Of a stretch of DNA of 55,544 nt, positions 1 through 15,235 are shown in pieces. The stretch covers positions 1-55,544 of the forward strand of contig CADEDO010000014.1 of NCBI GenBank assembly GCA_902826115.1, given 5' to 3'. The DNA is from an uncultured Nitrosomonas sp. (lineage in GTDB: Bacteria; Pseudomonadota; Gammaproteobacteria; Burkholderiales; Nitrosomonadaceae). A program made the translations under genes and the position numbers. Every line of letters begins with the position of its first letter. Positions within the stretch are counted from its first letter, which is position 1. The notes beneath the pieces are model-generated. The model had not been told where the DNA came from and made no database searches. It saw only the letters and a list, made by a program, of their open reading frames with translations.

Positions 1-264
1 TGGTGTTTGGTAAGGCGTCCGGTTTCAGTGCGACGATGGATTTGTCCAGTCTCGACGGCAGCAATGGTTTTCGTTTGGAACATCAAAATCAGCACTTTAA
101 CTTTGACTCTGTGAGTAGCGCAGGAGATATGAATGGCGATGGTTTTAGTGATGTAATTATCGGAGATCAAGAAGCTAATTCCAGCTATGTGGTGTTTGGT
201 AAGGCATCCGGTTTCAGTGCGACGATGGATTTGTCCAGTCTCGATGGCAATAGTGGTTTTCGTG
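1..264 (+). repeat. Near-identical 74-bp segments, 189 bp apart
   Basis: Bases 1-74 and 190-263 match at 69 of 74 positions, with only one difference in the first 54. The 189-bp offset is 63 codons, one FG-GAP blade, so this is a recent in-frame duplication or conversion between blades. Confidence 0.85.
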
Positions 265-1115
265 TGGATGGAGAGTTGAGCGGTGATCATTCAGGAAGAC
301 TAGTAAAAAGTGCAGGGGATTTCAACGGCGACGGATTTGATGATGTGATTATTGATGGAGACGGTCTCCACTACGTGGTGTATGGGAAAGCAACGGGGTT
401 CGATGCTGTGATAAATCTTTTGGATTTAAATGGGGACAACGGCTTTCGTCTGGATGGCATGAATGGAGTAGCAGGTGAATATTCTAGTTCATTGAATGGT
501 GTTGGTGATATCAATAATGATGGTTTTGATGATTTATTTTTTGTTGAGCTTTCCTCTCCTCGTTACGATAGCAGTTCCAGCTACGTAATATTTGGCAAAA
601 GTGACTTTGCTGATGAAGTGGATTTCCCAGGTACGCCTGGAAATGACATTTTAACCGGCACTTCCGCCGCAGAAAGCTTTGAAGGCGGTGATGGCAACGA
701 CCGGATGATCGGTCGGGGTGGTTCGGATGAGTTGCATGGTGAAGCGGGCGATGATTATATCCGGGTGTCCGATCTCAATTTCCAGTTAGTGGATGGCGGC
801 GATGGCAGAGATACGCTGGGATTGGGCGGCAATGGCCTAAATCTGGATCTAACCGGGGTAAATGGCAGGATCAGCGACATTGAAACCATCTATCTGTATG
901 GCACGGGCGACAATACGCTGACTTTGACCGCGCTGGATGTGGTCAATTTGTCGAGTACCAGCAATGTCCTGAGAGTCAATGGCAATGAGGGCGATCGCAT
1001 TGTTGGACTCGGCAGCGGATGGGACGATGGCGGGGTTCACGGGAAGTTTCACACCTATACTCAGGGCGAGGCAGTGCTGCTGGTGGGCGTAAATGTGGCG
1101 ACGGATTTTGTTTAG
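1..1115 (+). CDS. FG-GAP / RTX-repeat surface or secreted protein, 3' part only
   Basis: The reading frame is open at the left edge, so only the C-terminal part (about 370 residues) is visible. It contains three FG-GAP-like (integrin alpha beta-propeller) blades, each with a calcium-loop motif such as NGDGFSDV, NGDGFDDV or NNDGFDDL and a YVVFGK strand. A glycine/aspartate-rich stretch follows (GTPGNDILTG, GGDGNDRMIG, GEAGDDYI) that resembles RTX calcium-binding nonapeptides. The family is typically extracellular and often exported by type I secretion. No catalytic domain is visible here. Two blades are almost identical at DNA level, about 189 bp apart. The downstream gene is convergent. The repeat-family call is firm; the biological role is not known. 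Confidence 0.8.
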   Translation, partial: VFGKASGFSATMDLSSLDGSNGFRLEHQNQHFNFDSVSSAGDMNGDGFSDVIIGDQEANSSYVVFGKASGFSATMDLSSLDGNSGFRVDGELSGDHSGRLVKSAGDFNGDGFDDVIIDGDGLHYVVYGKATGFDAVINLLDLNGDNGFRLDGMNGVAGEYSSSLNGVGDINNDGFDDLFFVELSSPRYDSSSSYVIFGKSDFADEVDFPGTPGNDILTGTSAAESFEGGDGNDRMIGRGGSDELHGEAGDDYIRVSDLNFQLVDGGDGRDTLGLGGNGLNLDLTGVNGRISDIETIYLYGTGDNTLTLTALDVVNLSSTSNVLRVNGNEGDRIVGLGSGWDDGGVHGKFHTYTQGEAVLLVGVNVATDFV

Positions 1116-1243: not shown

Positions 1244-3175
1244 TTACATTCTATTTTTTTTATAAAACCTAGGAGAATAATCTTCGGATATGATGATTTC
1301 TTCTTTTACATATTCTTCATCAACTTGCTGAATATTCGCACTTAAAACCATTCGATTTCGAGAATGCTCTGCGGCGGCAATTTCTGCTCGTATCCTTGCA
1401 GCGGCTGCAGCGGTTGCTTCTTTGTCAGCTTGAGAGCGCGCAACCAGGGCTTCCTTAGCCATGACTTCAACGGCTTCTCTTTCCGTTGCATCTTCCAGCG
1501 CCTTGGATTCCAAAGCAATACGTTCTTGCATAGCAACCAGAGCATCTGATTCCGCTCTAGCTTTCTCTAGCGCAATTCTAGTGGCTGCCTTTTCTGCTTC
1601 CAGTTGCGCTTTGGCTTTGTTGGTGGCGATAATTTTCGCTTGCGCTCTGGTAATCGCCAGTCCTGTGATTTTCTGCTCAATCTCCAGACGCTCTGCTGCC
1701 GCTTGTTTTGCATCGATCATGGCCTTGGCACGAATTTCAGCGTCTTCCAATAGACGTTGCTCCAAATCCGCTTTCGTGTTCGCTTCTTGTACTGCCAATG
1801 CATCCATCTGTGCTTTGGCCTCTGCTGTAGCTTTCAATCGCATGTCTGCTTCTGCTCGATTAGTCGCAGCATGCTTGGCGGCGACCTCAGCCTCTGCTCG
1901 TGCTTCGGCTTCCTCAATGGCCACCGCATCTTCCTTGAGACGGTTTTGATATTCCTGGATCGCGTTGTTTTCCGCTTTTTTCCTTTCCTCGGCGACGGCA
2001 GCCGCTGCTCTCTCAGCCTGCACAGCGGCCTCTGCTGCAGCCAAGGCTTCTGTTTCCAATTGCATCCGTTTATTGACTTCGTTGAGTAACTCAGATTCTG
2101 CAATCAGTCGAGCTTTGATAGCCTCAGCCGCTGCATTTTCTTTTTCAAGAATGGATTCCGCCAACTCTGCCGCAACTTTCTCTGCATCCGCTTTATTTCG
2201 CGCTGCAGTAGCCGCACAGGCATCTGATTCCGTTCTTTTTCTGGCCTGCTCAGCTGCCAAAGCCTCGGTCTTAATTTTTTCCTCTGCCGCTTGAACAGCC
2301 GCAATCTCAGCTTGCATTCTATCTTCTTGCGCTTCCCTGGCTTGCCTCTCAATCTCCAATCGTCGGGTTGCCTCTGCCAGCGTTTGCGCTTCAATTCGCG
2401 TACGGGCTTGCACTTCTTCGATAGCCTGTTTTTCGGCTTCCTCACGCGCCTTGGCCAGAGCAATCGCTCTTTGCTCTTCGTGAATCTTGGCATTAGCCAA
2501 CATTGTTGCACTGGTTTCTGCCTCGATAGCAGCCATTGCAATCATGCGAGCCTCTTCGGCTACTTTTGCTCTATGAAAGGCGGCTTCAGCCACTTCATTT
2601 TCTTTCAGCGCAGCCGCATGAGCCAGATCTAAAGCCGCCGCTTCTTGCTCAACACGCTTCTGCATTTTTTCAACGATAGAAGCTTCTGCTTTAATCTTGG
2701 CTTCCAGTAAAGCACTCAAAGCTTTCTCAGACTTAAACTTCTCTTCAGCAAGATGCCTGGCCTTAACTTCAAGCTCGCGACGGGCATCCGCTTCTTTGAT
2801 AGCAAGTGCCTCGGCTCTCGCTTTGTTTCGGGCTTGTTCGGTTGCCAGAGCTTCCGTTTGAATTCTAGTTTCTGCCGCCATTCTGGCATTGGCTTCAGCG
2901 CGTGCCCTTGCCTCTGCAGTAACTCTCGCTATATTCTCTGCCTCAATCCGCTTATGAGCTTCTTTAATCGCCTGATCTTCAGCGATAAGTCGTTCATGAT
3001 AGGCTGTTTCAAGTTGTTGTTTGATCCCGTTCTCCAATAAAGACTGCTGATCGGAATCAGGCATATCATCTGCCGGTAACTCATCATCCAGAAAGCCAAT
3101 TGCTTCATCATGAGAAGACTCTGGCGACGAAGAATTTTTGCGTAATGAACTAAATAAACGTGACTTGAATGTCAT
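1244..3175 (-). CDS. Long alanine/glutamate-rich helical protein with forty 14-residue repeats
   Basis: This 643-residue protein has a basic N-terminus (MTFKSRLFSSLRKN), an acidic linker to about residue 50, and then residues 51-610 divide exactly into forty consecutive 14-residue units with no insertion or deletion. Unit position 2 is acidic in 36 of 40 units and position 12 is Arg or Lys in 35 of 40. Typical units are AEDQAIKEAHKRIE and AESDALVAMQERIA. The C-terminus (about 33 residues) is non-repetitive and ends YKKNRM. No signal peptide, membrane segment or known catalytic motif is visible. It resembles TolA-like helical rods only in composition. It lies downstream of fliR in the same direction, with a 239-bp gap. 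Its function is unknown; a cytoplasmic rod or spacer is an inference. Confidence 0.85.
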   Translation of the reverse strand: MTFKSRLFSSLRKNSSSPESSHDEAIGFLDDELPADDMPDSDQQSLLENGIKQQLETAYHERLIAEDQAIKEAHKRIEAENIARVTAEARARAEANARMAAETRIQTEALATEQARNKARAEALAIKEADARRELEVKARHLAEEKFKSEKALSALLEAKIKAEASIVEKMQKRVEQEAAALDLAHAAALKENEVAEAAFHRAKVAEEARMIAMAAIEAETSATMLANAKIHEEQRAIALAKAREEAEKQAIEEVQARTRIEAQTLAEATRRLEIERQAREAQEDRMQAEIAAVQAAEEKIKTEALAAEQARKRTESDACAATAARNKADAEKVAAELAESILEKENAAAEAIKARLIAESELLNEVNKRMQLETEALAAAEAAVQAERAAAAVAEERKKAENNAIQEYQNRLKEDAVAIEEAEARAEAEVAAKHAATNRAEADMRLKATAEAKAQMDALAVQEANTKADLEQRLLEDAEIRAKAMIDAKQAAAERLEIEQKITGLAITRAQAKIIATNKAKAQLEAEKAATRIALEKARAESDALVAMQERIALESKALEDATEREAVEVMAKEALVARSQADKEATAAAAARIRAEIAAAEHSRNRMVLSANIQQVDEEYVKEEIIISEDYSPRFYKKNRM

Positions 3176-3414
3176 AATTTTTAACCAAACTAGCGATTAT
3201 TCGAGTTGCTAATTTTAATAAATAGTTTCAGATATCAATGAAAATAACTTTAACAGCTTTACGTAAAAAGCTTATATCGGAAAAGAAGGGGAATATCGCC
3301 TGTTTATGCAAGAATAACCAAGTTACTTCTATAAAACATGGACATGACTCTTTTACCAAATTAAAGCCTATGGAACTTATCTGAATCAATTTGCACTCCA
3401 TATTAAAAAAACCG

Positions 3415-4212
3415 TTATGGCATATTGATTTTGCTGATATTAAGAATTCCCATCATTAAATTCAGACCGTCATATACCATGCGCTCCAGGATAGGCACAT
3501 AAAAAGGCATACTGAGTGCCATAACGAAGAGACCGATGGATAACGTAAGCGGAAAACCAACTGCAAAAATATTCAATTGCGGCGCAGCTCGCGTCAAAAT
3601 GCCTAAAGCAAGATTGGTAATCAGTAAAGCCGTTAAAACGGGCAGCGACAATTGCAAGCCAGATTTGAAGATCTCTCCACCCCAATTAGCTAGCGTAGTA
3701 AATGTCACATTAGTAATCCCGTCAGGACCAACGGGCAGGGTAGTAAAACTTTGAGATATCAAAGCAATCATAATCAGGTGACCGTCCATAGCGAGAAATG
3801 CCAGGCTAGCAATCACACCCAAGAAACGTCCGATGATATCGATCTGACCAGAATTTTGTGGATCAAAGAAAATTGCAAAACCTAGACCCATTTGCAAACC
3901 AATCAATTCCCCCGCCATTTCCACCGCCACAAAAACGATACGCATAACCAATCCCATGGCGATACCGATGATTAGCTGTTGCAATAGAATCACTAGCCCG
4001 ATACCGGTCGAAGGATCGATTTGTGGTAATGTTTTTTCTACCGTGGGGGCCACCAGGATTGTGATCATAACTGCCAATCCCAGTTTGGCTCTAACCGGAA
4101 TACTTGGGTTTCCAAGAATGGGCGCTGTTGCCACCAACGCAAGAATCCTGCTGAGTGGCCAAATGAATGTAGCCAGTAATGTATTTAACTCGGCGGTGGT
4201 TATACTGATCAT
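3415..4212 (-). CDS. fliR: Flagellar export apparatus protein FliR
   Basis: FliR is a membrane component of the flagellar type III export gate with FliP and FliQ. The 265 residues match the family length and are almost entirely hydrophobic, with about six membrane segments. The conserved block GFAIFFDPQNSGQ near residue 111 and the C-terminal segment MPFYVPILERMVYDGLN are typical. It is the last gene of the fliL-R group and starts 90 bp after fliQ. No strong ribosome binding site is visible before the ATG, so translation may depend on upstream reading. Confidence 0.96.
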   Translation of the reverse strand: MISITTAELNTLLATFIWPLSRILALVATAPILGNPSIPVRAKLGLAVMITILVAPTVEKTLPQIDPSTGIGLVILLQQLIIGIAMGLVMRIVFVAVEMAGELIGLQMGLGFAIFFDPQNSGQIDIIGRFLGVIASLAFLAMDGHLIMIALISQSFTTLPVGPDGITNVTFTTLANWGGEIFKSGLQLSLPVLTALLITNLALGILTRAAPQLNIFAVGFPLTLSIGLFVMALSMPFYVPILERMVYDGLNLMMGILNISKINMP

Positions 4213-4302: not shown

Positions 4303-4575
4303 CTAACCAATTGCCAACCACGGAATACTGGAAAAGAGTCGCTGCATATAATCGGTCATGAGATTAATCATCCAGGGCCCAGCCAGCACCATGACCAAAA
4401 ACATGACTAATAATTTAGGTATAAAGGACAACGTCATTTCATTAATTTGTGTCGCCGCCTGAAAAATACTGACCAACAAACCAGTCGCCAAGGCTGAAAG
4501 CAGTAAAGGCGCAGAAACCATGAATGTGATTTCAAGGGCTTGTCGACCAATAGTCATTGCGCTTTCTGGAGTCAT
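4303..4575 (-). CDS. fliQ: Flagellar export apparatus protein FliQ
   Basis: FliQ is a small two-helix membrane protein of the flagellar export gate. The 90 residues equal the family length. The start MTPESAMTIGRQALE and the conserved block ATQINEMTLSFIPK are diagnostic. The sequence AAAGGA sits 8 bases before the ATG as a ribosome binding site. The gene begins 13 bases after fliP and belongs to the same transcription unit. Confidence 0.96.
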   Translation of the reverse strand: MTPESAMTIGRQALEITFMVSAPLLLSALATGLLVSIFQAATQINEMTLSFIPKLLVMFLVMVLAGPWMINLMTDYMQRLFSSIPWLAIG

Positions 4576-4588
4576 GATTGAATTCCTT

Positions 4589-5434
4589 TCAGGTATAGAA
4601 GCTTTGAGTCAATGAACCGATGATTAAATGCCAGCCGTCAACCAGCACAAAAAGCATTAATTTAAATGGCAGAGAAATAATCATAGGAGATAACATCATC
4701 ATACCCATGGCCATCAATACACTGGAAACAACCAAGTCAATGATTAGAAACGGAATGAATATCACAAAACCAATCTGGAATGCGGTCTTCAGCTCACTGG
4801 TGATATAAGCTGGAACCAGTATCTTGAGCGGCACTTTATCTCGACTCTCAATTTCTTCGCTGCCCGAGATTTGCACAAATAACGCCAGATCAGTTTCTCT
4901 AGTCTGCTGCAGCATGAATGCTTTCACAGGCACGCTCGCTTTATCGGCAGCTTCCATAATGCTGATTTTATCTTCGGAAAAAGGCACATACGCTTCCGTG
5001 TAAACCCGATCAATCACCGGTGACATGATAAAAAAGGTCAGAAATAGCGCCAACCCGAGCAACACCTGATTAGGCGGCGAGGATTGCGTGCCCAGTGCCA
5101 ATCTTAACAGTGATAAGACAATGATAATGCGAGTAAAACTTGACATCATCAATACCACCGCAGGCAAAAAAGTGAGCGAAGTCAGCAATAACAGTGTCTG
5201 CAAACTCAGCGCATAAGATGTGCTGCCATTGGCATTGGGTGAACTGGTAAAGGCCGGGAAACCGGATTTCTGTGCAAACACCGGCAATGCAATGAATCCT
5301 ATCAAGAGAAGTATCGCTTGGAGTAAATGGCGCCTTTTGCAATAAGCCAAACAGCGGAAAATATTTACCCTGAGCCAACTCATCATTGTAGACCGAAAGC
5401 TTTTTTGGACTCTCAATGCCGATTGATTAAGCAT
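4589..5434 (-). CDS. fliP: Flagellar export apparatus protein FliP
   Basis: FliP forms the core of the flagellar export gate. I chose the ATG at 5434, which overlaps the fliO stop by 8 bases (ATGCTTAA) and gives 281 residues. A longer frame back to 5509 would run well into fliO and has no supporting family match. A cleavable signal-like segment ([13 protein letters not shown]) is followed by conserved FliP blocks such as [32 protein letters not shown] and the C-terminal [11 protein letters not shown]. The family is usually about 245-250 residues, so the N-terminus is somewhat long; an internal start at the MMSW pair is possible. Confidence 0.95.
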
Positions 5435-5864
5435 TATTTTTATGGATACTCTCATTAAGTTGCGTGGCAAATGTTTCAACCGGAGGAGGATTCTGTGTTT
5501 TGTCGCCAATATCGGCTGCAGGCTTATCCAAAGTATGTAATGTATTAACCCGGCCTGGCGCCACCCCCAGAACTAACCAAGTATTGTCAATCTCAACGAT
5601 AACAACCCGTTCTCTCTGACCGACCCCGGTAGCGGCAACCACCTTAAGCTTGCCTGTAGCTGTCGTTGGTATCAGGGAAAAGCGTTTCAGCAACCATGAA
5701 ATACCCCCTATGACCACCAACACCAGCAACAACCCTCCCATCATCTGCAGCGTGCTCTCGGTCGATATCGCTGGAGCAGGAGGCACATAACCTGGCTTTC
5801 CCGTTTCAGAAAAAACAGAAAGCGGGAACATCAATATCAAAATTATCCAATAGCGTTTGATCAT
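5427..5864 (-). CDS. fliO: Flagellar biosynthesis protein FliO
   Basis: FliO is a small membrane protein that assists assembly of the FliP ring. The 145 residues have an N-terminal hydrophobic signal ([14 protein letters not shown]), one transmembrane segment ([20 protein letters not shown]), and the cytoplasmic FliO domain including [22 protein letters not shown]. It lies between fliN and fliP as in most flagellar operons, and its end overlaps the fliP start. Confidence 0.93.
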
Positions 5865-5873
5865 GAATGCACG

Positions 5874-6425
5874 CTAGCGATTAAGCTTACGAATACGCTC
5901 ACTCGGCGTAATAATGTCAGTTAATCTGATACCAAACTTATCATTCACCACGACCACCTCACCCTGTGCAATCAAGCAACCATTCACCAGCACATCCATG
6001 GGCTCACCCGCCATACCCTCCAACTCGACCACCGAACCTTGGGCTAATTGCAGTAAGCTTTTGATAGCAATCTTGGTACGCCCCAACTCAACCGTCAGTT
6101 GAACGGGAATATCCAGAATCATATCGATGTCATGGCGTGTATTTTGTAGCGCACCATCTTTTGAAAATTCCTCGAATACTGGTGCTGTCTTCGCATTCGA
6201 CATGACATTGCTATTTTTTCCTGGTTCAGTCGCAGTCAATGTGTTTGCTTTGGCTCCATCCGAGCTATTTTGTGTCGATGTTGTTTGCTCTGCCATAGCC
6301 GCAGCCCAGTCATCGGCTCCCGATTCCTCTTGTATGGCGTCATTCTGAGTAGCAGCCGTTTGCTCCGCCATGGCGGCGGCCCAATCGTCTGTCTCAGTTT
6401 GATTGTTTTCTGTAGGCTCTGACAT
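5874..6425 (-). CDS. fliN: Flagellar motor switch protein FliN
   Basis: FliN forms part of the C-ring switch with FliG and FliM. I chose the ATG at 6425, because TGGAG lies 6-7 bases upstream; the longer frame starts at a TTG inside that binding site. The protein is 183 residues. The C-terminal SpoA domain is clear (DIPVQLTVELGRTKI, LLQLAQGSVVELEG, GEVVVVNDKFGIRLTDI). The N-terminal part contains the segment DDWAAAMAEQT twice, about 26 residues apart. Family members usually have this segment once. The position between fliM and fliO is standard. Confidence 0.95.
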   Translation of the reverse strand: MSEPTENNQTETDDWAAAMAEQTAATQNDAIQEESGADDWAAAMAEQTTSTQNSSDGAKANTLTATEPGKNSNVMSNAKTAPVFEEFSKDGALQNTRHDIDMILDIPVQLTVELGRTKIAIKSLLQLAQGSVVELEGMAGEPMDVLVNGCLIAQGEVVVVNDKFGIRLTDIITPSERIRKLNR

Positions 6426-6441
6426 AGTAATCTCCAATAAA

Positions 6442-7419
6442 TTAATCAGCTTCCGACGGAGAGATCATTGCATCGACTCTAAGGGCATAACGCCCATTAA
6501 TGATGCCATAGCGACAATCCATCACTGGCACGCCGTCCACATGCGCTTTAATGGTTTTAGGAATTTCCAAGGGGATGATATCTCCCGCTTGCATACTAAG
6601 AATTTGATCAAATGTCACTTTGGTGTGTCCAAGATTTGCGATCAATTCCACTTCAGCACCCTGCACTTGTTGCTGCAATAGTGAAACCCAGCGTTTATCA
6701 ACTTCCATATGATCGCCTTGCAATGCACTGGACAAAACATCCCTGATAGGCTCAATCATCGAGTAGGGAATGCAAACATGCAGCGCCCCTCCTTTGTTAC
6801 CCAAATCAATATCGTAAGTAACGATTACAACCACTTCATTGGGAGTGGCAATCGTGGCAAATTGAGGATTCATCTCAGATCGAATATATTCAAATTTGAG
6901 GGGATAAACCGATTGCCATGTTTTCTCATAATTCTCAAATACGACACTAATCAAGCGCTGGATAATACGCTGCTCAGTTTGTGTAAAATCTCTTCCCTCA
7001 ACGCGGGTATGGTATCTACCATCACCGCCAAATAAAGTATCGACAATCAAGAAAATCAGATTGGGATCAAACACGAATAATGCCGTACCTCGTAGCGGCT
7101 TCATCTGAACCATATTAAGATTGGTGGGCACCACCAAATTACGCACAAATTCACTAAACTTGATGATCTTAACGGGGCCGACCGAGATATCTACCGTACG
7201 GCGCATGAAATTGAACAATCCCATACGCAATAGGCGCGCAAATCGCTCATTGAGGATTTCGTAAGTCGGCATACGTCCACGAACAATGCGCTCTTGCGTT
7301 GCAAGATCGTAGGACCGCACGCCATCCTTAACTTCTTCTTTTGGCGCTTCATCAACCTCACCGATGGCGCCTTTGAGAAGTGCATCAACTTCGTCCTGTG
7401 AGAGAAAGTCTTCAGCCAT
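6442..7419 (-). CDS. fliM: Flagellar motor switch protein FliM
   Basis: FliM is the CheY-binding subunit of the C-ring. The 325 residues match the family. The N-terminus MAEDFLSQDEVDALL is the CheY-P binding helix (LSQDEIDALL type). The middle domain carries the GGxG-type motif in FGGDGRYHTRVEGRDFT, and the C-terminal SpoA domain includes LGHTKVTFDQILSMQAGDIIPL. The start is 6 bases from the fliL stop with no good ribosome binding site of its own, which suggests translational coupling. Confidence 0.97.
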   Translation of the reverse strand: MAEDFLSQDEVDALLKGAIGEVDEAPKEEVKDGVRSYDLATQERIVRGRMPTYEILNERFARLLRMGLFNFMRRTVDISVGPVKIIKFSEFVRNLVVPTNLNMVQMKPLRGTALFVFDPNLIFLIVDTLFGGDGRYHTRVEGRDFTQTEQRIIQRLISVVFENYEKTWQSVYPLKFEYIRSEMNPQFATIATPNEVVVIVTYDIDLGNKGGALHVCIPYSMIEPIRDVLSSALQGDHMEVDKRWVSLLQQQVQGAEVELIANLGHTKVTFDQILSMQAGDIIPLEIPKTIKAHVDGVPVMDCRYGIINGRYALRVDAMISPSEAD

Positions 7420-7425
7420 GTTTTT

Positions 7426-7914
7426 TTACTGGATCACAAATGATGTGAATAATACTTCCAGTACATCCTCTTTCAGTTCATCCGAACCCATTGATTGTTT
7501 GATTTCTTCAGTAATTTGCTGACTCAATTGTTGCTTTCCTACAATGCCGGCAACATCCGCTGCCTTCTTGCTGGAAAGCAACATTAAAATTCGATTGCGG
7601 ATTTCCGGCATTTGTTTGGCAATTGCCGCTCCCACTGGAGATTCTCTGGTTTTTACGGTTAATCCAACTTGTAAGAATTGACCGCTATCTTCAGGTTGAA
7701 GATTAACGGTAAACATCTCAAGATTCACAAATGCGGTTGGTTTTTCTTTTGGTTTTGGAGGTTCTGCACCTTCATCACCCGACATCTTCATTGCATACCA
7801 GGTACCGCCTGCACCCGCACCAATGGCGAGCACTGCGATGAGGATAATGATTAATAATCTTTTCTTACTTTTCTTGCCATCTGCTGGAGATGGTTCTTCA
7901 GTGGGTTTTGACAT
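7426..7914 (-). CDS. fliL: Flagellar basal body-associated protein FliL
   Basis: FliL is a single-pass inner-membrane protein near the stator. I chose the ATG at 7914 (MSKPTEEPSP), preceded by AAGGAG with 9 bases of spacing; this gives 162 residues. After a lysine-rich stretch (KKSKKR) there is one membrane segment (LLIIILIAVLAIGAGAGG) and a periplasmic domain containing FVNLEMFTVNLQPED and MPEIRNRILMLLSSK, both typical of FliL. It is the first gene of the fliLMNOPQR group, and a sigma-54-type motif lies upstream. Confidence 0.94.
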   Translation of the reverse strand: MSKPTEEPSPADGKKSKKRLLIIILIAVLAIGAGAGGTWYAMKMSGDEGAEPPKPKEKPTAFVNLEMFTVNLQPEDSGQFLQVGLTVKTRESPVGAAIAKQMPEIRNRILMLLSSKKAADVAGIVGKQQLSQQITEEIKQSMGSDELKEDVLEVLFTSFVIQ

Positions 7915-8076
7915 TCTGCTCAGCTCCTTAATCGATGAGATCAATTATCTTGGATGAAGCCGCAAACTGATATGTCAAATAACAGTGAAATAATGTCCCT
8001 ATTTTCAGATACAAAAACTAAACAGGAATTTAGTCAGGATTCATGCAGTGTATCTACTGCTTAATACATCGCATCG

Positions 8077-8091
8077 GCAAACTGAGATCCA
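8077..8091 (-). promoter_or_regulatory. Candidate sigma-54 promoter of fliL
   Basis: On the minus strand the sequence TGGATCTCAGTTTGC has TGG, then TTTGC at the spacing of the -24/-12 class (GG, 10 bases, GC). It fits the consensus less well than the fliK site, because the bases after GG are AT rather than CA. It would start transcription about 150 bp upstream of fliL. Confidence 0.5.
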
Positions 8092-8196
8092 TTCATTATG
8101 CTTCGTGAGCAACACGATGGAGAAAGAGAGTATATGGGATCATCACGCTACCGAATCTGATAACGTGACTGTTAACTAAGACAAACTCAACAATAA

Positions 8197-9723
8197 TCAA
8201 GCATAAGTATTCACAATCCCATTGTGCCTATTGAGTGAAATAGTCGTTTCAATTTTACTCACTCCCCCGTTACCAGCATCCAGTGAGTGTGTTGAGCCTG
8301 CACCTGCTTCAGATTGAAATGCCTGTTGCTGTTTATTTTGTTGCTGAAATGAATCAGCACCCACCATGACATTGCCCAATTGAATACCGCTCTCCGCCAT
8401 CATTTCCCTCAACCTGGGCAAAGCGGCTTCAATGGCCTCACGCACGGCTAAATGCGGTGATGAGAATTGAGCAGTAGCCTGATCTTGTGTAATGCTTAGC
8501 ATAACTTCGACGGGACCCAAATGAGCTGGATTCAAACGAATTTCAGCGACTTGATTCTGTTGATTGGTCAGCCAAATCACTTTCTGTGCAAAATCACCTT
8601 CCCACTTTGGTTGACCCACCGGAGTATTCACATGAATACTCTGCGAACCTGCTGAGCTCAGATTAGTGGTTGAAGCAGCACTGCTTAAGCCATAGGTTTG
8701 TGTTGCCGCAGACTCATCTGGAATAGAAAATACCGAATCAACTGCATTCATTGGAATTGCTTCGCTCATTTCTGAAGCAAACGGCAAGAACTCGCCATAT
8801 GCGGCAGAATTTGCCACACTCAGTGATTGCCAGAAATCACTCGCTGTATGATCAATATTGCCTGCTACTGAAGTGGCCTGCACGAATCTTTGCTGCAACA
8901 TTTCATTGACCGACAAAAGCGTTGAGCTTGTTATTGATTTACCATCCTGAGGCATCAATACATTCTGAGACAATGCCTGAGATGCGGCCGGTAAATTCGC
9001 GATTGCCATCAACATGCTTGGATTAGATATTGAATCAACTGAAGTGTTGATTGCCTGCCCGCCGCCATCTTGAAGCAGCATCGCGTTCTGAAGCACTACC
9101 GGCGATGCTGGTATCACCGGCAAAGCAGATGGAGTCATCGACGGCGACACCAAGTCAGACAAAGAGTCGTCAGTTTGCTGCATGTCTCGAGGAATCAGCG
9201 TGCTCTGCAGCAGCTCCGGCGATGTTCCGGATAGGGCCGATGTTGCAACCGTAGTGCTTGGATTTGATGTTGGGTCATGTGAGGCTAATGAGTGAGCGAT
9301 CTGGTGTGCATTGCCTACATCATTCAACAAGCGACTGGCTAAGTTACTGTCGCCCTTGTTGTCGCCCGATGCATCCACATTGCCGGATGCCACCTTCTTA
9401 TCACTGTTTGCTTTTAGTGATGCCTGCTCAGAAGATTCGGACGTCGACGCAGCATGACTGGTTTCATGTTTATGTAATGCTTTCTTATTCGTTTCTTCCT
9501 TGCTGATTGCTTCTTTACCCACGGTATCTTTATTCGTTATTTTCTCACTTGTCGATTCTTTGTTAGCCGCTTCCTTACGCGCTATCCCAGAAACTTCACT
9601 CGCTAGGACTTTACCAAACTCCTTGGTGGCAGGATTCTTGGTTTCGACAGAACCTAAGCTGGGTATGGCTGCTACATTACCCGCTGGTGATTTGATTTTT
9701 GATGCCATAGAAATATCTAACAT
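8197..9723 (-). CDS. fliK: Flagellar hook-length control protein FliK
   Basis: FliK measures hook length and switches export specificity. The 508-residue protein has a long low-complexity, Ser/Ala/Thr-rich N-terminal and central region, rich in Gln and Asn, as expected for the molecular ruler. Near the C-terminus is the conserved Flg_hook domain (VAEIRLNPAHLGPVEVML, then LPRLREMMAESGIQLGNV). A Q-rich tail (QQQNKQQQ) follows. The gene lies between fliJ and fliL. A well-matched sigma-54 promoter motif lies 45 bp upstream of the ATG. Confidence 0.92.
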   Translation of the reverse strand: MLDISMASKIKSPAGNVAAIPSLGSVETKNPATKEFGKVLASEVSGIARKEAANKESTSEKITNKDTVGKEAISKEETNKKALHKHETSHAASTSESSEQASLKANSDKKVASGNVDASGDNKGDSNLASRLLNDVGNAHQIAHSLASHDPTSNPSTTVATSALSGTSPELLQSTLIPRDMQQTDDSLSDLVSPSMTPSALPVIPASPVVLQNAMLLQDGGGQAINTSVDSISNPSMLMAIANLPAASQALSQNVLMPQDGKSITSSTLLSVNEMLQQRFVQATSVAGNIDHTASDFWQSLSVANSAAYGEFLPFASEMSEAIPMNAVDSVFSIPDESAATQTYGLSSAASTTNLSSAGSQSIHVNTPVGQPKWEGDFAQKVIWLTNQQNQVAEIRLNPAHLGPVEVMLSITQDQATAQFSSPHLAVREAIEAALPRLREMMAESGIQLGNVMVGADSFQQQNKQQQAFQSEAGAGSTHSLDAGNGGVSKIETTISLNRHNGIVNTYA

Positions 9724-9767
9724 ACGCTTTTAGCCTCACACAATGGTTATCGCACTACTGATAGATA

Positions 9768-9783
9768 AGCAATCTTCATGCCA
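9768..9783 (-). promoter_or_regulatory. Candidate sigma-54 promoter of fliK
   Basis: The minus strand reads TGGCATGAAGATTGCT, which fits the -24/-12 consensus TGGCACGrNNNTTGCW at nearly every defined position. The predicted start of transcription is near 9757, and fliK begins at 9723. The FleR-type sigma-54 activator encoded at 16744 is the natural partner. Confidence 0.75.
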
Positions 9784-9803
9784 TTCAAGCTTCCACTGAC
9801 GTA

Positions 9804-10271
9804 TTACTCATCGTTTTTGGATGAAAATGAGTCGTGGCGTGAAGCATTTGCAGAAAATTCATCCTGCAACTTTTGCTCTTGTTTTATTTGATGCTTGTTT
9901 TCTGCATCTTGATGGCGTTGCGACAGTGTTTCGTAGGATTTGAGCTTACGCTGATAAGACATGAATTCATTACTGCCTACAATCTTTTTATTATGAGCAT
10001 GCAAAACGACTTGCCGCTGTTCATTGACAGCAGCATCGAGTTTAGCCATAAAAGCCATAAAGTTATGCCATTCGATATGATCGATTCCTTTTGCTTTAGA
10101 ATCCTGAAAATGGGATTGATAGCTCTGGCGGTATTGCATGAGCAAATTTAGTTTTTTCTCTGCTTCCTGATGTTGAAAGTTTAATTTTCCCAATCTCTTG
10201 GCAGAAGCGTCCGTTTGCTGTTGAACCAAATCCAACAACAATTTTAAAGATGGCTTTTTGGGCATAACCAT
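9804..10271 (-). CDS. fliJ: Flagellar export chaperone FliJ
   Basis: FliJ is a coiled-coil protein that works with the FliI ATPase and recycles export chaperones. The 155 residues are helical, charged and Gln-rich, beginning KPSLKLLLDLVQQQTD, as in betaproteobacterial FliJ. The start is uncertain: an ATG at 10271 or one two codons later at 10265 (MPKKPS). AAGGA lies nearer the optimum for the second. The gene starts 14 bases after the fliI stop. Confidence 0.88.
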   Translation of the reverse strand: MVMPKKPSLKLLLDLVQQQTDASAKRLGKLNFQHQEAEKKLNLLMQYRQSYQSHFQDSKAKGIDHIEWHNFMAFMAKLDAAVNEQRQVVLHAHNKKIVGSNEFMSYQRKLKSYETLSQRHQDAENKHQIKQEQKLQDEFSANASRHDSFSSKNDE

Positions 10272-10285
10272 TCCATCCTTGCAAA

Positions 10286-11689
10286 CTAAATTACTTCGTT
10301 GCCCAACAGTCTTGTGAGCTTCTCAAGACTGTTATCAAAGTTCTCCTGTTGAGACATATTCTGATTCAAAAATCTTTCCAACTCAGGATAAAGCCTGATC
10401 GCCCGATCCAGCTCCGGATCTGTGCCAGCAACATAAGCACCCACGCTGATCAAATCATGGCTGCGCTGATAACGTGAATATAAGCTTTTAAATTTTCTCG
10501 ACATATCCACTTGTTTTTGCGAAACCACACTGGTCATAATGCGACTGATTGAGGCTTCGATGTCAATGGCAGGATAATGCCCGGATTCAGCCAATCTGCG
10601 CGACAGAACGATATGACCATCGAGAATCGCTCGGGCACTGTCTGCGATAGGATCATTTTGATCGTCCCCTTCCGTCAGAACCGTATAAAAAGCTGTAATT
10701 GAGCCATTCACTTGGTTACCATTACCTGCACGTTCTACCAACTGCGGTAATTTGGCAAATACAGAAGGCGGATAGCCTTTGGTCGCAGGAGGCTCACCGA
10801 TCGCCAAAGCAATTTCCCTTTGTGCCATCGCGTAGCGTGTGAGCGAGTCCATGATGAGCAATACATGCTTGCCAGTGTCGCGAAAATATTCGGCAATTGC
10901 CGTTGCATAAGCCGCACCTTGCAAACGTAACAATGGGGAGGTGTCAGCCGGTGCTGCAACCACTACCGAGCGTGCAAGCCCCTCTTCGCCAAGGATATGC
11001 TCAATAAATTCTTTGACCTCACGACCACGTTCCCCGATGAGACCGACAACAATTACATCAGCGGTGGTATAGCGTGCCATCATGCCGAGTAACACGCTTT
11101 TGCCGACGCCACTGCCGGCAAACAATCCCATCCGCTGCCCTCGCCCAACCGTCAACAACGTGTTAATTGCTCGCACCCCAACATCCAATGGGACTGTGAC
11201 TGGAATTCGCTCCAATGGATTATAAGGTCGACTGTACAACGGTACGTTATGTTCTGTACGAGTAGGCCCGAGTCGATCAAGAGGCTCACCAACACCATTC
11301 AGAACACGTCCCAGCAGCTCTGGCCCAACGGCAATATGCTTGGCTCGATCGGCCGCACGTCTTCTTGGGTGCTGTACACTGCCCACTTTAGGATGATCGC
11401 AAACAAGCTCAGTGGGCACGACTTTTGCCCCTGGTGCCAATCCATAGACATCCGTCGTTGGCATTAAAAACAGACGCTCTCCGGAAAACCCTACTACTTC
11501 AGCGGAAACACTGTGTCCATTGGATAGAAAAATGGTGCAACTGCTGCCAACAGCCATTTTGAGCCCTACCGCCTCCATCACCAGCCCCGCCACCCGTGTA
11601 ACCGTGCCGCTTAATGAGAAAGGATTAGTGGGAGCAATCAGTTGGGTACAATTGTGTAGAAAACTATCCCATTGTTGATAGCGAGTCAT
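10286..11689 (-). CDS. fliI: Flagellum-specific ATPase FliI
   Basis: FliI energises and orders flagellar type III export. The 467 residues match the family. The P-loop [11 protein letters not shown] is at residues 188-198, and the Walker B region [16 protein letters not shown] and the motif [20 protein letters not shown] are all intact. The N-terminal beta-barrel contains [15 protein letters not shown]. The ATG is one base after the fliH stop, so the two genes are tightly coupled. Confidence 0.97.
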
Positions 11690-11690
11690 T

Positions 11691-12404
11691 TCAGTCTTTT
11701 TTCTCTAGCCAACTATCATCCCGACCAATCGTTGCCAGAATCTTGTGCCAGCGTACTTCTATGCTGCCATCGATTTCACTGCCGCTGGCCTCGATGCGAC
11801 ACCCTCCCCGGGACAATCGCTCATCTTCACGAATGGACCAACTATCCTGCGCCAACGGCTTCTCCAAGTGTAAATGAACCAGCTTCGCATCCTCTGGATG
11901 CAAATAAAGACGAGGATGTTGCTTGGTATTCGGCAAATTCCGGATCGCCTCCTGCACAATGGGTATGATCAACTCAGGTTTGATGATCAACGCCTGGGTA
12001 ATCATCTTTTGGGCCAATGCAATCGCCAGATCCAGCAGACCACCAGCAACCTGCTGATCCATCTGATGTAAATCCTCATCCAGACTGGATAATAGCGCAT
12101 GCATACGATTCACTTCAGTTTGTACCTCAACTTCAGCTGCTTGCCTGCCTTCTGCATACCCCGCAGTATTGCCTGCTTGATAGCCTGCGGCATATCCTGT
12201 TTCCTTAGCATCCTGAAAAACCGCGGCAATTTCCTCTTCTGTCGGCCATTTAATCTGATCGCGTCCATCTTCTTGACCGTTATTTTCAGGCACCAAGTCC
12301 ACTTTGGGCTCTTGCCTGATCGAATCCAGCGTTTCCAGCGAATCCATTTCCCAGCGCTGATAGGCACTGAACTTTTCTTTGGGGATAATTTCGCTTGTCA
12401 TCAT
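11691..12404 (-). CDS. fliH: Flagellar assembly protein FliH
   Basis: FliH binds FliI and tethers it to the export gate. The 237 residues have an acidic N-terminus, a helical middle with small-residue repeats ([20 protein letters not shown], the GxxxG-type pattern of FliH), and a C-terminal domain with [16 protein letters not shown] and [21 protein letters not shown]. It lies between fliG and fliI. The exact start is uncertain because two ATG codons are adjacent and the binding site (AAAGG) is weak. Confidence 0.93.
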
Positions 12405-12485
12405 AAGTAAGCCTTTGTTTCAACCATAAATAACCAAACAGCCGTTACCACAGGCGATTAAGCCAACTTCATCAGCCCCTATTCG

Positions 12486-13481
12486 CTAAATGAAATTGTC
12501 TTCACCTTTTCCACCCAGCACGATTTGTCCGTCATCCGCAAGCTGGCGCACCACCTTCAGAATTTCTTTTTGTTCCGCTTCTACTTCCGATACACGCACT
12601 GGCCCCTTGCTTTCAAGATCTTCTCTCAATGCTTCAGCCGCACGTTGCGACATATTTTTGAAAATTTTCTTACGCAATTCTTCCTGAGCCCCTTTCAAAG
12701 CAATAATCAGCGACTCTGACTGCACTTCTCTGAGGAGCAATTGAATACCATGATCATCAATATCCAACAGGTTATCGAACACAAACATCTCGTCCATAAT
12801 CTTTTGCGCCAATTCTTCATCAAACTGCTTAATGTTATCAATGACACTGGTTTCCTGAGCCGTCGGTACATAATTTAAAATTTCAGCAGCCGTGCGTACC
12901 CCACCCAAAGCTGCTTTACGGATGTTATCGCTACCCGATAATAATTTTGTCAGCACATCATTCAGTTCACGCAAAGCAATCGGTTGGATACTATCCAGCG
13001 TAGCAATACGCAACAAGGTATCGTTACGCAATCGCTCAGTAAATAAACTCAGTATTTCACTTGCCTGATCACGCTCAAGATGGACCAAAATCGTAGCAAT
13101 GATTTGAGGATGCTCATTCTTAATAAGCTCAGCCGCTGCCGGCGCATCCATCCACTTCAATCCCTCAATCCCACTGGTGTCATCACCATGTAAAATTCGG
13201 TCGATGATGTTGGAGGCTTTCTCATCACCCAACGCATTGGTCATCACTTTGCGAATATATTCAGCTGAGCCATGGCCCAACGTCGTTCTTCCTTGCGCAT
13301 CATTGCAGAAATCTTTCAGTACGCCTTCGACCTCTTCACAAGTGATGTTCGACAAGGCAGACATGGCTTCGCCCAATTTCTGCACTTCTTTGGGACCGAG
13401 CAACTTGATGACTGATGCAGCCTCTTGCTCACCAAGTGTCATCAGCAGAATTGCACTTTTTTTAATTCCATCATCATCCAT
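12486..13481 (-). CDS. fliG: Flagellar motor switch protein FliG
   Basis: FliG is the rotor protein that contacts the stator and sits on the MS ring. I chose the ATG at 13481 (MDDDGIKKSAILL), which overlaps the fliF stop by 8 bases and gives 331 residues, the family length. A frame back to 13517 would extend into fliF. The conserved EHPQIIATIL block is present, as is the C-terminal domain with FVFDNLLDIDDHGIQLLLREV and the torque-helix region LIIALKGAQEELRKKIFKNMS. Confidence 0.96.
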   Translation of the reverse strand: MDDDGIKKSAILLMTLGEQEAASVIKLLGPKEVQKLGEAMSALSNITCEEVEGVLKDFCNDAQGRTTLGHGSAEYIRKVMTNALGDEKASNIIDRILHGDDTSGIEGLKWMDAPAAAELIKNEHPQIIATILVHLERDQASEILSLFTERLRNDTLLRIATLDSIQPIALRELNDVLTKLLSGSDNIRKAALGGVRTAAEILNYVPTAQETSVIDNIKQFDEELAQKIMDEMFVFDNLLDIDDHGIQLLLREVQSESLIIALKGAQEELRKKIFKNMSQRAAEALREDLESKGPVRVSEVEAEQKEILKVVRQLADDGQIVLGGKGEDNFI

Positions 13482-15159
13482 TTCCAGACACCCATTCTTT
13501 AACAACACTGGCGACAATCGCAGGCTGATCTACAGCCAGCTGCTTAGCTTTCTTAAGATTTTCCTCATACTCTTGTTTTTGCATAGTCTCCTCAAGTGCC
13601 CTTTGCTCCATTGCTCTTTTTTCTTCGATGCTTTCTGCTAATTGACCTACGACGACTTCACCAACTGCCGGCCCAGGCAATGCTGGAACTGGTGGTGGCA
13701 TTAAACTTTTTAAGAACGGCCGCAGGATCTTAAGCAAGAAAAACAAAACCAGAGCACCAATTAATAGTTGTTTGACGATTTCTTTCGCCAACATAATATT
13801 TTCTGGATCTTTCCAAAATTCTGTATCCAATACGCTCACATTCTCCGCAGTAAACAAACTGTTGGTTACTGTCAGCGAATCACCTCTTTTCTCGTTGTAA
13901 CCCATGGCTTCTTTCACAAGGCTATTGATTTCCTTGATCTCTTCGGCAGTTAACGGTTCGTTCGTCACTTCACCGTTCTCATTTATTTTCTTGCGATAGT
14001 TCACGACCACTGCCGCAGTGATCCGTTTGATATTGCCCGTGGCTTGTTGGGTATGCTGTACCGTTTTATCGACTTCATAGTTTGTCGTCGATTCTTTCTT
14101 CTGATCAGTCGGTATAACCGGCTTTTTATCACCCTCTTCCTTGTTAGCCTCGATTGGTGCCGCAGCAGGATCGGGTGGACGGTTTGATAATGCTCCCGGA
14201 ATACCGCCATCCATTTTTGAACCGACAGAAGTCGCTTCAGAAGTTTGCTGACTTCGAATAGCCGCTGCATCCGTTTCGGTATTATTGGGGCGGTAAATTT
14301 CTTCTGCACGCTCGATGCGGGAGAAATCCAAATCTGCAGTCACCTGAGCACGTACATTGGCGGCACCGGTGATTGGAGTCAGAATAGCTTCGATACGACG
14401 AATATAGCTATCTTCAAGCTCTTGCAGATATTGCAATTGCTTAACATCAAGTCCTTTGTCCTGCTTATTGTCATTCTGCGTGCTGAGTAAGTTGCCATTT
14501 TGATCAACAACAGTCACATTTTTGGTGGGTAGATTAGGCACGCTGCTAGACATCAAATGTACGATCGCGCTCACCTGATCAACACTGAGCACCCTACCTG
14601 GATGTAAATTCAGTAACACAGACACACTGGGTTGCTGTTTCTCCCTCGAGAAAACCGAAGGCTTAGCAATGGCCAAATGTACACGCGCACTCTGAACTGC
14701 CGACAGTGATTGCACTGAACGCGCTAACTCACCCTCCAGCGCACGCTGATAATTGACTTGCTCAAGGAATTGACTGGAGCCAAATTTCTGATTCTCCATG
14801 AGTTCAAAGCCGGGTAATCCACCTTTAGGCAATCCTTGACCAGCCAGTTTGAGACGTACTTCGTGCACTTGTTTGTCAGGAATCAGAATGGAACCACCAT
14901 TGTCAGAAAACTTATAGGGCACATTCATTTGTTGCAGAGAACTGATGATGGCAGCACCATCCTGATCGGATACGTTATTGTAGAGAACACGATAGTCAGG
15001 TGTCTGGCTCCACAACATAGCACCGACTAATAAAGCAATGACGGCCGCCGCTGCCAGGATCAGTCCCAGTTTTTTCTGATTAGAAAGCTGACTAAGGTGC
15101 TCTAATCGAAATGCTGTTGTAGGTGCTGTCGTATTGGATCCGCTAGGTACTGTTGCCAC
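13474..15159 (-). CDS. fliF: Flagellar MS-ring protein FliF
   Basis: FliF forms the MS ring, the base on which the flagellum is built. I chose the GTG at 15159 because AGGAGAGAG lies just upstream at correct spacing, giving 561 residues; an upstream GTG at 15189 has no binding site. There is an N-terminal membrane segment (LILAAAAVIALLVGAMLW), the YscJ/FliF domain with PDYRVLYNNVSDQDGAAI and LPGFELMENQKFGSSQFLEQ, a low-complexity middle, and a second membrane segment (QLLIGALVLFFLLKIL). The extreme C-terminus carries the FliG-binding tail. A sigma-54-type motif lies about 75-90 bp upstream. Confidence 0.96.
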   Translation of the reverse strand: MATVPSGSNTTAPTTAFRLEHLSQLSNQKKLGLILAAAAVIALLVGAMLWSQTPDYRVLYNNVSDQDGAAIISSLQQMNVPYKFSDNGGSILIPDKQVHEVRLKLAGQGLPKGGLPGFELMENQKFGSSQFLEQVNYQRALEGELARSVQSLSAVQSARVHLAIAKPSVFSREKQQPSVSVLLNLHPGRVLSVDQVSAIVHLMSSSVPNLPTKNVTVVDQNGNLLSTQNDNKQDKGLDVKQLQYLQELEDSYIRRIEAILTPITGAANVRAQVTADLDFSRIERAEEIYRPNNTETDAAAIRSQQTSEATSVGSKMDGGIPGALSNRPPDPAAAPIEANKEEGDKKPVIPTDQKKESTTNYEVDKTVQHTQQATGNIKRITAAVVVNYRKKINENGEVTNEPLTAEEIKEINSLVKEAMGYNEKRGDSLTVTNSLFTAENVSVLDTEFWKDPENIMLAKEIVKQLLIGALVLFFLLKILRPFLKSLMPPPVPALPGPAVGEVVVGQLAESIEEKRAMEQRALEETMQKQEYEENLKKAKQLAVDQPAIVASVVKEWVSGNG

Positions 15160-15235
15160 GAACTCTCTCCTGCTAAAATTCCTGAACACTCATCAATCAA
15201 TATTAGTAATCCGCCAGAATTTGCACGACACAGTA

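Follow-up and report, generated by a model that had tools for sequence, protein, structure and literature searches.

A strictly regular 14-residue-repeat rod protein co-inherited with flagellar genes in Nitrosomonas and in another family of its order

A stretch of 55,544 nucleotides from an uncultured Nitrosomonas sp. (contig CADEDO010000014.1 of GenBank assembly GCA_902826115.1, hereafter the window) carries next to fliR a gene for a 643-aa protein in which a strict 14-residue register extends over 560 residues; the register is kept by selection, and its rare changes are mostly compatible with a coiled coil. The gene is co-inherited with flagellar genes in two families, also where it is not adjacent to them. 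The explanation we prefer, to which we would give roughly an even chance, is that the product is a cytoplasmic alpha-helical rod, forming an alanine-core coiled coil that is most likely antiparallel, and that it is a scaffold used by the flagellum. In the ammonia oxidisers of the genus Nitrosomonas, as in another family of their order, a large conserved protein follows the flagellar genes through repeated losses; if the proposed scaffold role is true, it would be a new coiled-coil element in a machine believed to be well catalogued. A regular and length-constrained rod of this kind is also a test case for how coiled-coil length and register behave over long evolution. The features of the gene and its surroundings are as follows.

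1244..3175, (-) strand: rod gene, 643 aa with an ATG start (open reading frame and orthologs)
3137..3175, (-) strand: N-terminus, residues 1–13 (MTFKSRLFSSLRK), short and basic, a possible membrane-targeting sequence
3026..3136, (-) strand: linker, residues 14–50, acidic and Ser-rich, variable, mostly with pLDDT below 50
1346..3025, (-) strand: rod, residues 51–610, 40 units of 14 residues (register analysis, orthologs and model)
1247..1345, (-) strand: tail, residues 611–643, variable (length variation in orthologs)
3176..3414, (-) strand: intergenic gap between fliR and the rod gene
3415..4212, (-) strand: fliR (PF01311, Pfam)
4303..15189, (-) strand: remaining co-directed flagellar cluster, with FliK, FliI, FliH, FliG and FliF assigned by Pfam, and further genes which, judging by eye from the translations, we take to be fliQ, P, O, N, M and L

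An earlier note on this DNA had described residues 51–610 as exactly 40 units of 14 residues with no phase slip, and a recount gave the same result, with position 2 of the unit occupied by E or D in 36/40 units and position 12 by R or K in 35/40. Alanine occupies position 5 in 31 and position 9 in 29 of the 40 units. Over lags of 1–59 residues, self-identity exceeded 0.20 solely at 14, 28, 42 and 56 (0.24–0.28). The top periodicities of acidic and basic residues, 2.8 and 7.0 residues, are harmonics of 14, as are those of the hydrophobic residues, 4.67 (14/3) followed by 3.5 (14/4). The rod contains no proline, 160 Ala (29%), 110 acidic and 92 basic residues, and would be about 80 nm long if fully helical (560 × 0.15 nm), the value given before. 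Identity between units averages 3.7 of 14 residues, with a maximum of 9; the low mean indicates that the units are old. The view that the units are strongly diverged and their register under selection, rather than recently duplicated, agrees with this unit identity, with the lengths of the orthologs and with the dN/dS values given below.

The suggestion that no named family has this pattern was borne out in the libraries searched. Pfam and NCBIfam yielded no matches to the window protein, the PDB yielded none by sequence or by profile, and the single PHROG entry listed had an E-value of 0.17. A homologous-protein database search at an E-value of 1e-3 with the whole protein, with residues 480–610, and with residues 1–110 of a relative from the second family (f24) returned nothing; since public genomes do hold orthologs, this empty result is uninformative as to absence. 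A term-based search of one open-access library of papers for Nitrosomonas coiled-coil, flagellar and cytoskeletal proteins and for 14-residue repeats found no report of the rod protein. We treat it as a family without a match in these libraries, of which the near-palindromic 14-residue unit and the tie to flagella are distinctive.

In the family-wide search, Nitrosomonas was represented by genus g1 with 85 genomes, of which 72 carry a rod, the copy in G021 being a gutted remnant; outside the genus the same search found it only in G148, a member of genus g28. The dN/dS ratio was 0.11–0.23 in eight hand-chosen ortholog pairs, and the gene is old and constrained. Lengths were counted in 69 full-length orthologs, leaving out the G021 remnant, the contig-cut genes of G003 and G015, and G148. 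The unit length, whose free variation among close relatives had been named in advance as evidence against a selected register, proved stable: the 40-unit rod is kept in 61 of the 69 orthologs, with exactly 560 residues in 55 (among them G009, by way of two compensating single-residue gaps) and a difference of one or two residues, confined to the first or last unit, in six further ones. Three others (G093, G095 and G105) carry four extra residues near residue 370, a stutter-like insertion. Three of the five orthologs with other lengths are altered by whole 14-residue units (48 units in G086 and G103, 56 in G089), while G002 and G026 have 638 and 491 rod residues with a slip. The G073 rod has 560 residues in the alignment, but the phase scan reveals a brief, local change of phase within it. 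Outside the rod, head length ranges from 42 to 68 and tail length from 0 to 152 residues over the 69 orthologs. The series 40/48/56 suggested an 8-unit superperiod, but the window rod showed none; the two longer rods tested (G086 and G089) give a 16-unit lag instead, as from tandem duplication. Over the orthologs, positions 2, 5, 12 and 9 of the unit are the most constrained (entropy 0.64, 0.79, 0.95 and 1.10), and units 2–5 and 31–39 are better conserved (0.60–1.29) than units 11–30 (1.50–1.91).

A fixed length could also be read as the mark of a flagellar export substrate or of a length ruler like FliK, measured by its 560 residues; the constancy in 61 of 69 orthologs, the position after fliR and the lack of a signal peptide, as judged by eye, all suit such a role. 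Nevertheless, we consider it very improbable, because FliK is already encoded in the window, one clade has 48 or 56 units, and the relatives in g28 and f24 have a C-terminal hydrophobic segment that would be odd in an exported protein.

As the earlier note had it, the rod gene ends a flagellar cluster: FliR lies immediately upstream and, beyond it, FliK, FliI, FliH, FliG and FliF are encoded on the same strand. The check proposed there, conservation of the gene beside fliR among relatives, gave fliR as the immediate upstream neighbour, in the same orientation, at 66 of 73 rod loci, with a gap of 91–589 bp (median 203). In G024, G096, G098, G092 and G081 the rod gene has been retained without linkage to fliR; in G096 the two are 337 kb apart on the same contig. 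Scoring of the 73 upstream regions against the sigma-28 consensus gave a mean best score of 10.35 versus 10.17 for letter shuffles, and a sigma-28 promoter was rejected, the window gap having no such site above shuffles.

Among the 85 genomes of the genus, 71 have the rod together with FliR (two of the rods contig-cut) and 12 have neither. Two remain: in G112 FliR is present, but only about 50 bp of contig follow fliR, and in G021 FliR is missing and all that is left of the rod gene is a 167-aa remnant with head, tail and roughly three units. The remnant is located at L111 4848–5351 (-), and its downstream neighbours are the same as in G113. For comparisons corrected for descent, rpoB trees were built from 60 and 59 of the 125 family genomes; the second tree excludes G085 because of its branch of 2.0, and the contrasts exclude G112. 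The rpoB gene of G085 (L149) is far from the genus, possibly reflecting a foreign contig or a gene damaged in the assembly. On the tree of 59 genomes FliR needs seven changes, and in the seven independent contrasts the rod went the same way in six, showed no difference in one and never went the opposite way (p 0.031). Without G021 the agreement was 5/6 (p 0.0625), and within the genus alone 5/5 (p 0.0625). In genus g28 the sole FliR-bearing genome, G148, is also the sole one with the rod. Chemotaxis was considered as the object of the association and disfavoured, since the rod tracks FliR better than CheA: a strong CheA match (PF02895) is absent in five genomes with both FliR and the rod (G025, G101, G015, G104 and G008) and present in G021 and G004, which lack FliR and an intact rod. 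Judged by these mismatches, the rod goes with the flagellum and not with chemotaxis.

The same association was found in f24, which was reached by the window protein through a single genome of another family (G059, E 1.6e-15). A genus profile (A1) searched against 300 genomes of the order at 1e-10 matched in the genus Nitrosomonas only. The f24 protein, searched against the same 300-genome sample at 1e-8, matched 10 genomes belonging to the genus, to f24 and to one weak case (G272); it missed 6 of the 8 Nitrosomonas genomes in the sample and is thus an insensitive probe. Given this low sensitivity, rods may occur in further families of the order. In 100 genomes drawn evenly from the larger number in f24, the G059 protein found relatives in 58; rod and FliR were found together in 56, the rod alone in two (G456, a weak match, and G467), FliR alone in 21 and neither in 21. 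For genus g24 the numbers with both, rod only, FliR only and neither were 20/0/2/5 (Fisher p 2.6e-4), and for g78 17/2/0/6 (p 1.6e-4), both values being uncorrected for descent. In genus g143 FliR was found in 13 of 19 genomes and no rod was detected. Genus g27 has FliR in 22 genomes and the rod in none; together with the 21 of 77 FliR-bearing f24 genomes in which no rod was detected, this indicates that flagella are not generally dependent on the rod. The flagellar link, only guessed at in the earlier note, is backed by this co-inheritance in two families.

Adjacency offers another account of the pattern, in which the rod is lost with the flagellar genes merely by hitch-hiking; fliR is the direct neighbour in 66 of 73 loci, and loss of a whole cluster would remove the rod too. 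This is nevertheless improbable. The association holds in g24 and g78, although rod and fliR are at least 44 kb apart in all of the f24 genomes that have them on one contig (8 of 56, namely G423, G452, G454, G462, G474, G476, G494 and G506), and in G021 the rod was removed from a gene whose two ends and flank are still there. The neighbours of the rod gene in G059 look non-flagellar by eye, with GMP synthase on one side. This distance from fliR in f24 would also suit a cytoskeletal rod with a general role in cell shape or in the envelope, which motile species would retain for reasons of shape or lifestyle and which would make no contact with the flagellum. Known long bacterial coiled-coil proteins do include shape cytoskeletons, such as crescentin and Ccrp in the descriptions given by PMC10873595 and PMC4379086, respectively. 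We regard this explanation as possible but unlikely, in view of the co-directed position just behind fliR at most of the 73 rod loci and of the decay of the rod in G021, where flagellar genes were lost.

The 14-residue pattern itself is shared by the f24 proteins. Twenty of them were read and show self-identity peaks at 14, 28, 42 and 56. An acid occupies position 2 in 0.87 and a base position 12 in 0.82 of the units, frequencies that lean toward the genus profile because the phase scan was built on it. The genus-trained scan scored 161–279 on these 20 proteins and 461 on G148, versus at most 5.0 on shuffled sequences, so the pattern is not due to chance. As regards a possible common descent beyond the shared pattern, genus units 2–7 aligned best to the f24 N-terminus in 20/20 proteins on raw scores, all of which were negative, and in 16/20 after phase correction; in the comparison of G148 with the genus, units 2–7 likewise aligned best at the N-terminus, both raw and phase-corrected. 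In the 20 f24 rods (L202–L221) the pattern drops out about 20.5 units after the rod start and resumes in the same phase, and many of them have their highest self-identity at 56 residues (four units), a possible higher-order repeat.

An AlphaFold2 model built with 17 orthologs predicts helices at residues 3–10, 49–287, 291–295 and 300–613, with a mean pLDDT of 72.9, a pTM of 0.20 and no partner chain; the head, including helix 3–10, and the tail are of low confidence. The break near residues 288–299 is probably not real, as it falls in a low-confidence stretch with no proline or glycine. According to PMC4786415, an insertion of four residues is called a stutter and belongs to the interruptions most easily accommodated by a coiled coil. 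The stutter-like and whole-unit changes are the pattern expected of a coiled coil, and a heptad rod with stutter-type breaks fits the data (560 residues in register, +4 in three orthologs), other slips being found in G002 and G026. Of the two structures put forward earlier, a long coiled coil is likely, given the indels, the long helices of the model and the unit pattern. The other, a single charged alpha helix acting alone as a spacer, finds some agreement in the opposite-charge pairs at i to i+4, which exceed shuffles in both directions. Single alpha helices of this type are dominantly charged and have no hydrophobic positions, whereas the rod has 202 charged residues out of 560 (36%), with Ala at 29%, and 270 of A/I/L/M/V/F/W/Y/C. 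A helix acting alone would also offer no evident explanation for the strict register and the stutter-like insertion, and we consider this structure very improbable.

As regards the coiled coil, on a 3.5-residue wheel the hydrophobic stripe, with Ala included, is centred nearest positions 5/12 and next 2/9, which places E2 and R12 within it alongside A5 and A9; the large hydrophobic residues centre on positions 6/13, off both stripes. This placement, and a top hydrophobic harmonic of 4.67 rather than 3.5, count against the proposed coiled coil. The unit is near-palindromic (E2-A5-A9-R12): under the reflection of x to 14-x, hydrophobicity correlates with r 0.95 and charge with r -0.94, matched by 48 of 20,000 permutations of the 14 positions, each taken at its best reflection. 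Charge matching is -0.112 for in-phase parallel, +0.098 for in-phase antiparallel pairing, and +0.066 when parallel chains are offset by 4 or 10 residues, which argues against a parallel dimer, though not decisively. Together, the palindrome and the charge matching favour an antiparallel alanine-core coiled coil in which E2 would most likely lie opposite R12 and A5 opposite A9. Counting against the antiparallel reading, R(i)-E(i+4) pairs number 50 versus 18 in shuffles (31 versus about 18 in the opposite direction), and such an intrahelical bridge would account for part of the E2/R12 spacing. No in-phase antiparallel overlap is preferred by charge (0.154 for full overlap; mean 0.159, sd 0.011), and a single preferred register was rejected. 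The stronger conservation of units 2–5 and 31–39 would suit an overlap of two rod ends. The Alacoil is defined by Ala at one core position per heptad, and over 54 orthologs the fraction of units with Ala is 0.72 for position 5 and 0.65 for position 9. The rod would share with the Alacoil (Gernert 1995, as reported in PMC6403662) both Ala at core positions and the antiparallel pairing proposed here, but differs in its strict 14-residue unit, in E and R within the core stripe and in its 560 residues.

Attachment to the membrane may take place through the short basic N-terminus in the genus and through a C-terminal hydrophobic segment in the relatives. Residues M1, F3, K4 and L7 are invariant in 17 aligned orthologs. 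The N-terminal amphipathic moment does not stand above its own shuffles (0.12–0.26 of them equally high in ten proteins), so a membrane-targeting role is one that we infer. The f24 proteins have an N-terminal MSA...IRLV motif, and 19 of the 20 reach their highest hydrophobicity in a segment close to the C-terminus that is preceded by basic residues. Its hydropathy is 1.34–2.13 and overlaps that of the Ala-rich helix in the genus rods, which reaches 1.54, so that the call of a membrane segment rests on the pattern too; G148 also has such a segment, at 1.89. By the positive-inside rule, the basic residues and this segment would place the rod in the cytoplasm.

As a scaffold, a rod about 80 nm long, if straight, may for example hold the basal body at the inner membrane, stiffen it or set its position there. 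Against a flagellar scaffold stand G467 of f24, which has the rod and no FliR, the model pTM of 0.20 and the lack of a sigma-28 promoter. One specific form of the idea, which we find decidedly unlikely, is an accessory cytoskeleton of the flagellum, in which the palindromic unit would allow any two tethered rods to pair antiparallel with a shift of any number of whole units, and the rods would self-assemble into a strut or lattice beneath the motor or pole, their length (40, 48 or 56 units) setting a cellular distance.

The rod may work like crescentin-type rods or polar scaffolds, without having all the features that define any of the families compared. Crescentin and intermediate-filament-like proteins, as described in PMC10873595, are likewise long bacterial coiled coils near the membrane with a tolerated stutter, but they are built from parallel dimers and have a different repeat. 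No Pfam or PDB sequence match links the rod to crescentin, and the flagellar co-inheritance is a feature of the rod. Bactofilins are defined by a beta-helix domain, which the rod, with no Pfam match and an all-helical model, does not have. Its N-terminal MTFKSRL, proposed to bind the membrane, resembles in character their membrane-targeting peptide, which is short and N-terminal, with a hydrophobic start followed by Lys (consensus MFSKKKK in the account of PMC12448750). Scaffolds at the cell pole that are connected with flagella, such as TipN and HubP, would be similar in working only, with no sequence relation seen. We know of no 14-residue rod among scaffolds of this type.

Several further genes were noted around the rod gene. 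An ORF at 3–1115 (+), at the window edge and convergent with the rod gene, contains FG-GAP and RTX-type calcium-binding-like repeats, as judged by eye. Behind the rod gene, several relatives carry genes for a secreted-looking protein (L094 7132–8622; cluster c8, 14 loci) and for an ABC-F-like ATPase (L094 8660–10513; cluster c9, 10 loci), both also assigned by eye.
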